Below, one piece after another: positions 29,414 through 33,016 of a stretch of DNA of 44,368 bases (positions are counted from its first letter, which is position 1; each line of letters begins with the position of its first letter). The translations under genes and the position numbers were made by a program. Source of the stretch: Acidobacteriota bacterium (GTDB lineage: Bacteria > Acidobacteriota > Terriglobia > Acidiferrales > UBA7541); the NCBI GenBank assembly GCA_003223245.1, contig QHYI01000120.1:1-44368 (forward strand). Reading direction: 5' to 3'. The notes below the pieces were generated by a model that made no database searches, was not told the DNA's origin, and was given only the letters and a program-made list of their open reading frames with translations.

Positions 29414-29851
29414 TCACGCTGGCGGCGCGCTTTCTTCGATTTGGTCCACTACGTCGTCCAGCGTGCTCAAAGGCACCTGCAGATGCACGTTCCCGTCGGG
29501 ATCCTCTACATCGATCTGCAATTTCCCGTCGTGCGTGCGAATTCGCGCGTGCTGGTCGCCATCCTTGATTTCTACAAAATCCGTGTCAGGGAGTTTCTTC
29601 ATCCCCTTGAACAATGCGTGTGCTGCCGGCAGAAATTCGCGGGCCTGCCCCGCCGCCTCGCGGAAGTGATGCTTCGGGACGAAGTGCATGGCCATCGGCA
29701 CCATCGCCGCCGGCACCCACATGTGAATGTGCGAACCTCCTGTGCGGAATTCATCCACGTCCACGCGAATCACGCCTTCGCGGAAAGTGTACGCGCCTGC
29801 CAAAACGAGCGTTCCACCTAACCCTAAAGCGGCTTTCGCCAGCAGCATCAT
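29414..29851 (-). CDS. Secreted or anchored small protein sharing a domain with its upstream neighbour
   Basis: The start at 29851 has GGGAGGG 5 bases upstream. The 145-residue product begins with a hydrophobic helix (residues 4-21). The rest repeats a pattern also found in the gene upstream: a VP motif (residues 46-47), a helix, EIKDGDQHARIRTHDGKLQIDV near 94-115, then VPLSTLDDVVDQI at 126-138. Acidic turns (KDGD, DPDG) alternate with strands, giving a small alpha/beta unit. No family is recognised. It lies 50 bases after the related gene and is probably in the same operon. Convergent with the reductase gene. Confidence 0.6.
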   Translation of the reverse strand: MMLLAKAALGLGGTLVLAGAYTFREGVIRVDVDEFRTGGSHIHMWVPAAMVPMAMHFVPKHHFREAAGQAREFLPAAHALFKGMKKLPDTDFVEIKDGDQHARIRTHDGKLQIDVEDPDGNVHLQVPLSTLDDVVDQIEESAPPA

Positions 29852-29901
29852 GTTTCCCTCCCGCGCATTTCCGCTCAATATGCGGGCAAACGGCAAACTG
29901 T

Positions 29902-30534
29902 TTACTCCGCGACGCTGTTCGAATCGAGCCAAACCTTCACTGTGTTTTCGCTGTCCTTGACGGAGACCAACTCGGTATCGCCCTGTGCTTCCAGAACGTG
30001 GAGCGCTGCGACCAGGTCTAATTCATCCTTGCCAGCGGAAAGCAAGGCTTCAACCACCTTCATGGGCATCTTGACTTCCACATGCGACTTCTTTGGACCG
30101 TTCTTGTCCACCACATGAATGATCAAATGGTTGCCCTCTTTGGCCACGCGTACATCATTATCATCGCCCTGCACGGTGACGTATTCGCCCTCCTTGGCGG
30201 TGCGGATCGCGTCCATCACGGCGCGTAAATCCACATCGTTCACGTCCGAAGAATCAATCCGGACCTTGCCATTGTGCAGCCGGTCGTGATTCACGGCGGG
30301 TAGCACCTTTTCCGCCAACTCCAGCGGCATGTTCACCCGCACCGTTTCCCGCTTGCCCTGGGTGCAGATTACCCGCACGTGCAGCCAGCGTTCGCCTTTT
30401 TCGGAAGTCGCGGAACTCGCTGGCTGAGAAGCCTTTGCGGCAGTCTGCGCCAAGGCCCCTGCCGGCAAAAGCAGCAAAGCGAACCCTGTGGAAAGCAAGG
30501 ACTTAGGGATAAGCGCTCGATTTACATGGGACAT
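29902..30534 (-). CDS. Secreted protein with two copies of an unrecognised domain
   Basis: The start at 30534 has AGGAGG about 10 bases upstream. The 210-residue product has a signal peptide (to about ALAQ, residue 30) and then two copies of one unit. Unit A, residues 66-141, has VNMPLELAEKVLP, DLRAVMDAIRTA and VTVQGDDNDVRVAKEGNHL. Unit B, residues 153-206, has VKMPMKVVEALLS, DLVAALHVLEAQ and VSVKDSENTVKVW. The 145-residue neighbour downstream holds the same order of motifs. No catalytic motif is visible and I know no name for the domain. It is probably an operon with that neighbour. Confidence 0.62.
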   Translation of the reverse strand: MSHVNRALIPKSLLSTGFALLLLPAGALAQTAAKASQPASSATSEKGERWLHVRVICTQGKRETVRVNMPLELAEKVLPAVNHDRLHNGKVRIDSSDVNDVDLRAVMDAIRTAKEGEYVTVQGDDNDVRVAKEGNHLIIHVVDKNGPKKSHVEVKMPMKVVEALLSAGKDELDLVAALHVLEAQGDTELVSVKDSENTVKVWLDSNSVAE

Positions 30535-30794
30535 GGCGGATTGCCTCCTGGTCAGCTTGGGGGCTGTGGTAGCAGTCTTCGCTTTTTGGCACCACGAGAG
30601 TTCCCGGCTGATGGTTAAAGGTACGAGACAGCCCGACAAAATGTTTCCCCAAAATCGGCCTTTCCTCTTTTCCTTTGGCCCCGGCCAACGTTCCCCACGA
30701 CATTTGCAGCGTTTGCGTGCGCCTGGAATCGCGCTAGCGGGGTGGGCCTCGGTGGGGATCGCTCTGGCTGGCTCGTTTCCATTTTGGATTCCGG
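30535..30794. other. Upstream region of the two-gene secreted-protein operon
   Basis: No gene is supported. The promoter of the minus-strand operon should be here, but no clear -10/-35 pair is seen. Confidence 0.4.
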
Positions 30795-31038
30795 TTTTGC
30801 ACAGCCGTGCGCAGCTTTGCACAGACAAAATTGCAGACTCCCTTGCCAAGAAAAACCTGCGGGTCTACCCTCTCCGCCAGATTGAGCCGGGAAGCCCAAA
30901 AAACTTAACGGCACAATTAAAAGAGGGCGCAGCCGCCGCGAGGCCGTTGCGCCCTCGATTTGTTTTGCCTATTTCGTAGCGCCGGCTTGTCCTGGGCCTG
31001 CCGAAGGGCTTCCAGTTTATCCAGAGCGTCGAAGGGCC
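30795..31038 (+). repeat. Intergenic repeat, copy 1
   Basis: This sequence matches copy 2 (32633-32873) in the same orientation with several small gaps. Shared words include TTGCCAAGAAAAAC, GCCGGGAAGC, AACTTAACGGC, CAATTAAAAGAGGGCGCAGC, CGCGAGGCCGTTGCGCCC and CCTATTTCGTAGCGCCGGC. Copy 1 has about 31 extra bases near 31000. Confidence 0.85.
30843..30966 (+). ncRNA. Candidate small RNA, copy 1, with terminator
   Basis: The core of the repeat ends in a hairpin GAGGGCGCA/TGCGCCCTC (30923-30931 with 30948-30956) followed by ATTTGTTTT, a proper plus-strand terminator. No plus-strand gene lies upstream, so it has no coding transcript to end. An inner stem CTGCGG/CCGCCAG (30857-30862 with 30874-30880) keeps its pairing in copy 2 with different bases. 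This suggests an RNA gene, not a simple repeat. The promoter was not identified. Confidence 0.5.
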
Positions 31039-31138
31039 GGCTCGTTTTCCTCGCTGCCTTGCTGCGCCCGCTGCGGCGTACTCGCGCACCGGTCGCTCGG
31101 CCGTTACCTTACTTCACTCGCGAACCTGAAGTATCCCT

Positions 31139-32353
31139 TCAGACTTTCTCTGCAGCAGCCTCACGCGCAAGGGAGGGCTTCGTTTGTCGTGTTTCCGCCA
31201 GCGGAGCTTCTCGTCCGCGCGCCGTCACCTTCTCCAGCGATTCGATCAGGCTGTTCCGCACCCATAGCGCGCAATCAAAATTGTTCACGGTAGGGCAAAC
31301 ATGGCGCGGAAGCAGGTAGAGCACCTCGCCGACCCGTGGCCCTGCGCCTTCCCCCGCGACCGCCATGGGCAGATGCTCTTCGCTGGGTGCGAGGGGCGTA
31401 AGTTCCGGATGGCCAGCGACCAGGCACGTGGGCACGCCCGCATCGGCAGACACCGCTTTGTGCCCGGCATCGCAGGTAACCACGCCTGTGCGCGGGCGGC
31501 TGACGACTCGGGTTAGTACCAGCACCGCCGGTCGGTAACCGTACTCGGTGGGCAATTGCGCCAGACTCGTCGCATCGTTGTAAACGACGGTCCCGGGCGA
31601 CACGCGGTGCACGAATCCTTTCCCGCGAAAGCCTTGGTAGGCCAGGGAACATGGCAGCGTCGGTGTGCCCGCGGTGACCACTTCTGTCACGCGTGCCCCG
31701 CTGCGCTCAATCTCGCTCACGATTTCCAGCAGGGAATCGTAGCCGGCATGTGCCGCTGCAGTCCTCTCGCGCTCTGCGAGCCCGCCATATTGCCCGTCGT
31801 AGTAGTGCAGGCCGCGGAACTCCAGCCCGGCTTCTCTCAAGCTCCGCACGAGCTTAAGAACCTCGCCTTTGTGGCTCTGCTCGATGCCCGTGCGATTCAT
31901 TCCTGGATTGATGTCTAGAAACACGCCGATGGAGCTGCCTCGCCATTGCCGCACTTGCTCTTCGTTTTCGGCCAAGACGGAAATGCTTACATCGGGAAAC
32001 GCCCCGGCGATTTCTCGCACGCGGCGTGCATTCGCCCCCACGGCCGGATAAGCAAACAACACATCCCTCGCGCCGCTGCGGCACGCGACCAGGAGTTCGA
32101 GCGTCGTCGCGCACTTGAAATTGAGGATGCCGCGTTCGATGAGCATTCGCAACGTGCACTCCAGCTTCGCCGTCTTGATATGTACCCGCCAGCGATTTGT
32201 GTCGCCACCCAGCAATTGCAAAGTCCGCGCAATGTTGGAGGCAATCATTTCCCGATAAAATACGAGCGCAGGTGTAAGCACATCTTCGACGCCCGATACG
32301 CGATACCGTTCGTCCCAAGAAAACCCGTTCAACATGGATTTCTGTGTAGTCAT
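31139..32353 (-). CDS. D-threonine aldolase/D-serine dehydratase-like PLP enzyme
   Basis: The product from the ATG at 32353 has 404 residues. The N-terminal alanine-racemase-like barrel carries a PLP lysine in HIKTAKLE (Lys60), where the family has HVKTHK. FLDINPGMNRTGIE and LHYYDGQYGG follow. The C-terminal domain has EEHLPM and LLPRHVCPTVNNFD, the His and Cys metal ligands of D-threonine aldolases and D-serine dehydratases. These act on D-3-hydroxyamino acids. A TAATAT box ends 10 bases before the start. The gene lies alone between two copies of an intergenic repeat. The exact substrate is not clear. Confidence 0.85.
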   Translation of the reverse strand: MTTQKSMLNGFSWDERYRVSGVEDVLTPALVFYREMIASNIARTLQLLGGDTNRWRVHIKTAKLECTLRMLIERGILNFKCATTLELLVACRSGARDVLFAYPAVGANARRVREIAGAFPDVSISVLAENEEQVRQWRGSSIGVFLDINPGMNRTGIEQSHKGEVLKLVRSLREAGLEFRGLHYYDGQYGGLAERERTAAAHAGYDSLLEIVSEIERSGARVTEVVTAGTPTLPCSLAYQGFRGKGFVHRVSPGTVVYNDATSLAQLPTEYGYRPAVLVLTRVVSRPRTGVVTCDAGHKAVSADAGVPTCLVAGHPELTPLAPSEEHLPMAVAGEGAGPRVGEVLYLLPRHVCPTVNNFDCALWVRNSLIESLEKVTARGREAPLAETRQTKPSLAREAAAEKV

Positions 32354-32363
32354 CGCAGCTTCG

Positions 32364-32369
32364 ATATTA
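32364..32369 (-). promoter_or_regulatory. -10-like box (TAATAT) of the D-threonine aldolase-like gene
   Basis: TAATAT on the minus strand ends 10 bases before the ATG, leaving almost no leader. No -35 box is seen. Confidence 0.35.
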
Positions 32370-32392
32370 GCGCAAACGGCGTCGCACCTCAC

Positions 32393-32632
32393 CCACGCGC
32401 AGCCCTAAAAGTCTAAATCGTGCAAATCTGGGCCTCGCCATTGCTGCGCCGGCGGGCCACCGAATTTCTAGTTTTCTTTTTCGTTTTCTCGCAATTCCGA
32501 TCTTCGAGTTTCCACAGTAATTTCAATTTTGGAATTTCCAAATTCGAATTTCGTTCTCCATTTCCTAATTTCGCTTTTCCATTTTCGCTTTCCGGAATTC
32601 CTCTTCGAACCTCCAACCTCTAACATCTGCCT
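32393..32632. other. Pyrimidine-rich AT tract
   Basis: A low-complexity stretch rich in TTTC and AATTTC words (about 32460-32600) with small inverted parts such as GGAATTTCCAAATTCGAATT. No gene is supported. Confidence 0.45.
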
Positions 32633-32873
32633 TTTTGCACAGCTTTCCACAGTTGAATTTTCAGATTTCTCTTGCCAAGAAAAACGGCTGGGCCTACTCT
32701 CTCGCCCAGATTGCGCCGGGAAGCCTCAAAACTTAACGGCCCAATTAAAAGAGGGCGCAGCGGTCGCGAGGCCGTTGCGCCCCTCGATTTTTTGCCCTCG
32801 CAATCGCGGCCGTCTTCGCGGCTCTTATTTTGCCTATTTCGTAGCGCCGGCTTGTCCTGTGCGTCGAAGGGCC
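32633..32873 (+). repeat. Intergenic repeat, copy 2
   Basis: Same orientation as copy 1 (30795-31038). It has about 34 extra bases just after the terminator, before TTTGCCTATTTCGTAGCG. The two copies lie 1.6 kb apart and bracket the D-threonine aldolase-like gene. Confidence 0.85.
32672..32793 (+). ncRNA. Candidate small RNA, copy 2, with terminator
   Basis: The core repeats copy 1. The stem CTGGGC/GCCCAG (32688-32693 with 32704-32709) is perfect here, where copy 1 has CTGCGG/CCGCCAG. The final hairpin GAGGGCGCA/TGCGCCCCTC (32751-32759 with 32776-32785, one bulge) is followed by six T (32788-32793). The nearest plus-strand gene upstream ends 3.3 kb away. Confidence 0.5.
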
Positions 32874-33016
32874 ACTTTCCTCTTCAGCGCGCCGTAGGCG
32901 CGGCACCCACTGGGACGGCACCATCTCCGCTGCAACCGTCGAGGCCGCTCCCCGCTCTCCGGCCGCCCTTCAGAATTTTGTCATGCTCCTTGGCCTCCTG
33001 GCACCATCCCTCGAGA
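32874..33016. other. Remaining spacer before the ADOP gene
   Basis: No gene or clear element is seen in this part. Confidence 0.4.

Follow-up and report, generated by a model that had tools for sequence, protein, structure and literature searches.

The 44,368-nt contig analyzed here (QHYI01000120.1, assembly GCA_003223245.1, from an Acidobacteriota bacterium; hereafter the window) carries two homologous intergenic elements on its plus strand, copies 1 and 2, each of which is almost certainly an RNA gene. Judged from sequence comparison, they appear to be two genes of a stand-alone structured noncoding RNA family that we found only in one acidobacterial family. The comparisons support a common layout for these genes, with a predicted promoter: CACA boxes, usually three and with a 10-bp period, about 20 bp, a -35 element, 17 bp and a -10 element. 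A presumed RNA start near CAGATTG would then be followed by a closing helix, from zero to about six arms, and an intrinsic terminator. We judge the family to be new, unusual in its modular architecture and absent from Rfam 15.

Copies 1 and 2 share aligned blocks of 20, 64, 55 and 38 nt in a common order, at 80, 81, 95 and 95% identity, as an earlier note on this DNA had seen from long words in shared order. They are real and look like paralogous RNA genes; the source genome holds four copies, the other two on contigs C211 and C56. Copy 1 opens with three CACA (DnaA-box-like) boxes in 10-bp phase, TTTTGCACAG-CCGTGCGCAG-CTTTGCACAG (30795-30824, plus strand, as are all features of both copies), of a kind that recurs upstream of the family. 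A promoter-like element assigned from a 28-copy alignment lies at 30843-30871 (-35 TTGCCA at 30843-30848, a 17-nt spacer, -10 TACCCT at 30866-30871). The predicted RNA of about 88 nt spans 30878-30966, its start placed about 7 nt past the -10, and has a covariance-model match at 30876-30965 (100.5 bits). Folding gives a 5′ hairpin at 30880-30918, the counterpart of a helix that joins the 5′ and 3′ ends of longer relatives (see below), and a predicted intrinsic terminator hairpin at 30923-30956 with a T-rich tail to about 30966. Copy 2 has two of the three boxes, TTTTGCACA and CTTTCCACA (32632-32652), the middle one being missing, and a promoter-like element from the same alignment at 32672-32700 (-35 TTGCCA at 32672-32677, a 17-nt spacer, -10 TACTCT at 32695-32700). 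Its predicted RNA, also about 88 nt, spans 32707-32794 (match at 32705-32794, 91.9 bits) and would fold into a 5′ hairpin, again the closing-helix counterpart, at 32709-32746 and an intrinsic terminator hairpin at 32751-32785 with a T-run to 32793. The GAGGGCGCA hairpins with T-rich tails described in the earlier note are these two terminators. The covariance model (R1, RNA part only) was trained with both window copies included. Compared with dinucleotide shuffles, the predicted transcripts gave folding z scores of -5.9 (copy 1) and -5.1 (copy 2), with 0 of 500 shuffles reaching the value in either case. A search of the window for tRNA and tmRNA found none.

The same order of parts recurs in single-unit copies across the genus. 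In alignments (A2 and A3) of 28 of the 31 copies, L016, L017 and L018 being omitted, up to three direct repeats (TTTTGCACAG, CCGTGCACAG and CTTTCCACAG, with a 10-bp period) are followed after about 20 bp by a -35 of the form TTGCC or TTGAC, 17 bp, TAnnnT in most copies, about 7 bp, and then CAGATTG. The RNA part consists of a 5′ hairpin, a short linker and the terminator hairpin, about 88 nt in total, which is shorter than the transcript of 120-150 nt that had been anticipated; its loop region, GGAAGCnUnAAAAACUU, is conserved among single-unit forms. Many relatives with longer RNAs have the promoter-like sequence TTGACG-17-TATCTT. Several observations weigh against the assignment of promoter, terminator and structure in the single-unit form. 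A strict consensus scan called a sigma-70 promoter at neither window copy, whose -10s agree with TATAAT at three positions only, and a strict terminator scan called copy 2 and missed copy 1. The single-unit alignment also holds little covariation, with 12 double-change cells that all fall within the terminator.

Two elements noted earlier at these loci do not belong to the RNA. An inner stem, CTGGGC/GCCCAG, which had been taken as a sign of selection on structure, extends from the promoter spacer across the -10 to the presumed start point. Longer pieces folded alone can form it, but all six pairs are kept in only 2 of the 28 aligned copies, and in the aligned register copy 1 itself retains 2 of 6. 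For this reason we take it as promoter sequence and reject it as part of the RNA. Likewise, of the copy extents first given (30795-31038 and 32633-32873) the RNA part stands, whereas the portions from 30960 and 32825 belong to a second repeat, TATTTCGTAGCGCCGGCTTGTCCTG...CGAAGGGCC, that lies 3′ of both RNA copies (30960-31038 and 32825-32873). When copy 2 was compared with the source genome, the RNA part was found at three other places and the downstream part at copy 1 only; the second repeat looks like a dispersed intergenic repeat duplicated together with the RNA. A similar string, CTTGTCCTGAGC, occurs near homologue L146. Decayed pyrimidine-rich TTTTCGAATTTCCATTTTC-like repeats lie directly 5′ of copy 2 (32460-32620) and, by eye, also 5′ of other copies (L008, L011, L027, L030 and L031).

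Homologues were sought in the window's genus (36 genomes), its family and its class (399 genomes). R1 gave matches in 29 of the 36 genus genomes and in 43 of the 399 class genomes, of which 39 belong to the same acidobacterial family and four, with weak matches, lie outside it. On inspection of one match per genome (one of two in G359), the four outside the family (G102, G271, G359 and G391) and one inside it (G289) proved to be merely terminator-like hairpins. A second model, R2, of the last unit plus terminator and built from 38 hand-picked rows, matched 40 of 89 genomes of the family (Gp2 / Ca. Acidiferrum) in five genera: 30/36 in the window's genus and 4/5, 4/20, 1/6 and 1/2 in four others. 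With this distribution, the recurring promoter-like region and terminator, and the covariation in the long forms described below, the suggestion that this is a structured small-RNA family holds up. An exact pattern also matched named records, those of Gp2 Acidobacteria metagenome-assembled genomes and of Candidatus Acidiferrum typicum. The box pattern alone, with up to two mismatches, occurs in 31 of the 36 genus genomes (one hit for the reversed control) and, with up to one mismatch, in 31 of the 399 class genomes, all of this family (none for the reversed control). It led to a divergent long RNA in G004 that R1 had missed and R2 later matched. On the opposing side, R2 had no match in 6 of the 36 genus genomes and 43 of the 53 other family genomes, among them eight further genera, and the box matches in G001 and G017:C14 have no recognizable RNA behind them; such RNA-less matches number at least two, those at G006:C99, G011:C509 and G019:C9 lying outside the inspected set. 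The G017 site (L104, G017:C14:3341-3367) has a perfect three-box match with TTGACG downstream and is possibly a decayed gene. Two single-unit copies from different genera, L121 (G346) and L159 (G033:C144), have similar upstream coding sequence by eye, which hints at shared synteny or transfer.

Many relatives carry long forms, RNAs of 240-540 nt in which units recur about 76 nt apart, with one box-bearing promoter before the first unit and one T-run after the last. In predicted folds, the 3′ half of a unit's 5′ hairpin forms a helix with the following unit's 5′ half around a capped hairpin, and the closing helix arises from the opening 5′ half and the final 3′ half. The long forms are thus very probably, on predicted structure, sets of up to about six long arms in a multi-way junction closed by the RNA ends. 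Alignment of 47 arms from 13 arrays, cut across unit boundaries (A7), placed 83.4% of cells in pairs, and 22 of the 30 arm pairs showed double changes, with 88 double-change cells against 40.9 ± 5.6 expected (0 of 500 shuffles); slid versions of the same arms reached 33-43% pairing. A divergent subgroup (A8; 22 arms, 4 arrays) was 77.9% paired with 50 double-change cells against 25.9 (0 of 500 shuffles). Covariation among homologues, a mark of the proposed family, is thus present in the arms of the long forms. L072, L112 and every long RNA from other genera were excluded from A7 and A8. Two points weigh against these counts: the number of pairs changed on both sides in A8 was matched by 21 of 500 shuffles, and the arm structures were predicted from the very alignments counted, in which kinship can inflate counts over shuffles.

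We then compared pairing between neighboring units around the ring with pairing inside each unit. On identical columns, the ring gave 80.4% against 68.8% in A7 and 75.8% against 66.3% in A8; in both alignments ring pairing was reached by 0 of 5000 within-array permutations, and it exceeded intra-unit pairing in 16 of 17 arrays, with equality in L069. The alignment used was built in the ring register and leans towards it. A consensus fold of 84 single units (A4), prepared without recourse to the ring register, contained the capped hairpin only and no 5′ helix. A4 leaves out 36 of the 120 segmented units (two duplicates of singles and the units of L071, L072, L080, L083-L085 and L112). In the segmentation, unit starts that the profile had not found were added by hand, one in L083 and three in L084. 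We rejected the reading of the arrays as repeats of one hairpin, the intra-unit register being the poorest of seven in A7 (68.8%, next 68.9%) and the second-poorest in A8; the 84-unit consensus fold without such a helix also counters it. A rod, with unit i pairing with unit N+2-i, was suggested by the minimum free energy of some 3- and 5-unit arrays and is not preferred: the divergent arrays L071, L072, L079, L080, L083, L084 and L085 favor the ring (permutation p 0.0001-0.044), and where arms are nearly identical the two are indistinguishable. An odd-number rule for units (1, 3, 5, 7) is not strict either, since 2-unit (G033) and 6-unit arrays exist. By duplex energy the ring came first in 9 of 18 arrays, with permutation p < 0.05 in 7 of them, and tied in one. 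On the other side, another register had the lower energy in the remaining 8 of 18, namely L069 and seven arrays of five closely similar units; in addition, the minimum free energy folds of several 3- and 5-unit arrays were rods or mixtures, and the closing helix of L149 did not form in silico. That helix is otherwise frequent: in 18 of the 25 long RNAs, nt 1-17 have more than 7 expected pairs with the segment ahead of the terminator, and among long RNAs from three other genera (455-516 nt), which the arm, register and duplex-energy comparisons left out, the 5′ end falls on that segment in 6 of 7. Because the 5′ ends of long RNAs pair there, the window RNAs are best seen as the zero-arm form, a closing helix plus terminator. 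The hairpin cap (A4, A7 and A8) switches between GCAA (GNRA), UAAC and GGGUAAAACC types among clades. Exchange of GNRA-like tetraloops could reflect tertiary docking.

A midpoint-rooted tree of the DnaA proteins of 31 congeners, with good support for 11 of its 28 inner branches, places single-unit forms at a minimum of three positions, and at one of these they adjoin 7-unit RNAs. Long forms are present in three other genera. For these reasons arms have probably been lost or gained repeatedly. Copy number was tallied from R2 matches. Seven of the single-unit genomes, including that of the window, have 3-5 each (G000 4, G018 4, G030 5, G032 4, G024 4, G012 3, G008 5), and 18 of the 21 array-bearing genus genomes have one array each.

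The upstream boxes resemble TTWTNCACA, which we take to be the DnaA box consensus. In the 430 bp before dnaA of 31 congeners, measured from estimated start codons, there are 54 perfect boxes of this type against about 0.8 expected for uniform bases, 33 of them TTTTCCACA. As would be looked for in a DnaA-regulated promoter, the boxes of the RNA genes are like the organism's own DnaA box. Of 59 box rows, which include two second entries of loci whose first entry failed parsing, 47 could be parsed; the other 12 were cut inside the first box, lacked boxes or had other spacing. Among the parsed promoters, box 1 agrees perfectly with TTWTNCACA in 41 and box 3 deviates at no more than one position in 45. 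The second gap between boxes is 1 bp in all of them (the parser allowed 1-2, and fixed the first gap at 1), and box 3 lies 20 bp from the -35 in 37, most of the other ten looking like cases in which an earlier TTG was mistaken for the -35. Several details speak against DnaA: box 2 fits poorly (1-4 mismatches in the parsed promoters), unparsed rows have other gaps of 0 bp (L145, L148) or 2 bp (L027), and copy 2 lacks the middle box. In addition, E. coli DnaA is described in PMC11317965 as preferring boxes 2-3 bp apart, a spacing from which the mostly 1-bp gap of this family departs. Because of this difference in spacing and the missing box, control of transcription by DnaA through the upstream boxes is a guess rather than a result, one that we hold to be plausible and somewhat short of an even prospect.

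The genes taken to flank the copies (29414-30534 and 31139-32392) are on the minus strand, and, as the earlier note had it, no convincing plus-strand gene lies upstream; a mechanically called plus-strand open reading frame (30488-30979) crosses copy 1. An open plus frame runs through 18 of the 28 single-unit copies, which is unsurprising at 90 nt, and through 0 of the 25 long RNAs, and on the latter count we rejected protein coding. Neighboring genes vary by locus, save at a few orthologous loci, which speaks for action in trans. They encode a protein with Ala_racemase_N and D-ser_dehydrat domains, a MacB-like permease, ThiS-MoaE, a nucleoside phosphorylase and DUF3089, as well as an aminotransferase, a TIM barrel, HD-CE, SIMPL and others. 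No transposase was found among 26 neighboring proteins scanned, 7 of which had no Pfam match. Viral contigs, scanned twice for exact patterns derived from the single-unit RNA and its boxes, gave no match and no support for a phage origin. Within these limits, and with the long RNAs lacking an open plus frame, the mobile-element or degraded-gene origin that the earlier note had named as a refutation did not come to light. Same-strand pairs of RNA genes 1.1-1.8 kb apart are frequent (30878-32794 in the window; also G008, G018, G024, G030 and G032), and in G000, G018 and G030 such pairs flank a racemase-fold gene.

The family was also compared with known RNAs. Rfam 15 gave no family at gathering score in the whole window and no relevant family at E ≤ 10 in 30700-33000. 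Acido-1 (RF01686) and Acido-Lenti-1 (RF01687), either of which had been considered a possible identity, were accordingly rejected for want of a covariance-model match at gathering score in the window or at E ≤ 10 in 30700-33000. At 12 homologue loci (E ≤ 0.5) no family matched the RNA above threshold: two hits fell short of their gathering scores, HepC_CRE across the 3′ portion of the L148 RNA (21 bits, 140 required) and atpB at another position (24.7 bits, 37.4 required). Acido-Lenti-1 does occur at L148 (2133-2178, minus strand; 45.3 bits, gathering 37), outside the long RNA of G202 and on the opposite strand. Both Acido RNAs are listed in PMC2864571 as candidate structured RNAs of Acidobacteria that are not cis-regulatory; the present RNA resembles them in being likewise a candidate structured acidobacterial RNA. 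GOLLD, ROOL and OLE, with which the long forms may be compared, are large ornate bacterial RNAs whose structures are backed by covariation and which form homo-oligomers, according to PMC12286853. None of the three matched at the 12 homologue loci (E ≤ 0.5), and unlike them the present RNA varies from 0 to about 6 arms within one genus and has a minimal form of 88 nt. No account of this RNA came up in a literature search, with bioRxiv and the majority of subscription journals outside its reach; this is no proof. CsrB, RsmY and RsmZ are protein-sequestering RNAs, and the long forms, with repeated hairpin modules on a stand-alone terminator-bearing RNA, are like them, whereas the window RNA is one unit. 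CsrA (PF02599), however, was found in 0 of the 36 genus genomes (a control was positive in 3 of 14), which speaks against a classical sponge, and we rejected a CsrB-like sponge of CsrA; visual inspection showed no GGA-loop motif common to all units. With multi-copy small-RNA families such as Qrr the family shares several paralogues per genome (3-5) and a common upstream region, and it differs in its sigma-70-looking promoter and large multi-arm forms.

What such an RNA might do can be framed only tentatively. The reading we lean towards, at not quite an even prospect, is a trans-acting modular RNA that binds a partner. Action in trans would follow from the lack of a conserved neighbor; each unit, that is the closing helix or an arm with its junction linker and capped hairpin, would offer a single site at which a protein or an RNA partner docks; and dosage would be set by the arms per RNA in long forms or by the 3-5 gene copies of single-unit genomes. 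A weaker step is that transcription may answer to DnaA via the upstream boxes, tying the level of the RNA to the replication cycle. We favor partner binding because the structure and the capped hairpins are kept while the exposed sequence drifts. Against the dosage step stand G016, G021 and G346, with one single-unit match each, and G033 with nine. A trans-acting small RNA whose hairpin loop or linker pairs with mRNAs, helped by an Hfq-like protein, is somewhat unlikely but deserves a serious hearing: size, terminator and several paralogues per genome suit ordinary small RNAs, and the loop region of the single-unit form is conserved. Hfq-like proteins, which this reading would call for, are present at E ≤ 0.001 in 33 of the 36 genus genomes, although only 7 of 36 exceed the curated cut-off; loop and linker sequences nevertheless differ between clades and between arms, and the long forms are predicted to be largely paired. 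One strong Hfq match (95.5 bits; G034:C118:69-251) lies at a contig end, is unlike the weak matches of congeners, and may be a contaminant or a transfer.

The remaining explanations are less likely. The boxes themselves could be what matters, titrating or reloading DnaA in the manner of datA or DARS with the transcript incidental, and DnaA-box-like sites are indeed clustered in a recurring layout; we consider this distinctly improbable, as the downstream RNA covaries over hundreds of nucleotides and ends in a terminator, neither of which is expected of an incidental transcript. An equally slender prospect is a self-assembling ornate RNA, in which separate molecules of single-unit genomes would join head to tail by the segments that bind neighboring units in long forms. 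Since long forms pair each unit's 3′ half with the following unit's 5′ half, the halves are compatible between units; co-folding the window RNAs as homo- or heterodimers gains 5.1 kcal/mol, computed without control RNAs; and bacterial RNAs that form homo-oligomers are known from GOLLD, ROOL and OLE (PMC12286853). The same pairs, however, are satisfied by a hairpin within one molecule, and the gain is small. A bolder version, doubtful though a little less so, would make the family a new class of ornate bacterial RNA with interchangeable arms, 0 to about 6, in one closing helix, switched by DnaA each replication cycle; lineages would trade arms for armless gene copies, and armless molecules might assemble by unit-to-unit pairing. 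Least credible of all is a functionless dispersed repeat or the remnant of a mobile element. Several genomes do hold 3-5 scattered copies, and the window shows a local duplication around one gene with an extra repeat downstream of its copies, but the layout from boxes to terminator persists in five genera, the RNA covaries, and neither the 26 neighbors nor the viral contigs, in the scans described above, offered a transposase or a match.

With this family, a soil lineage gains an RNA missing from Rfam 15. Between 88 and about 540 nt in size, the RNA grows through the addition of whole arms rather than the elongation of helices, and it can show the minimum needs of an RNA built on a multi-way junction. 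If DnaA truly binds the upstream region, the family would provide a direct link from the initiation of replication to a noncoding RNA.

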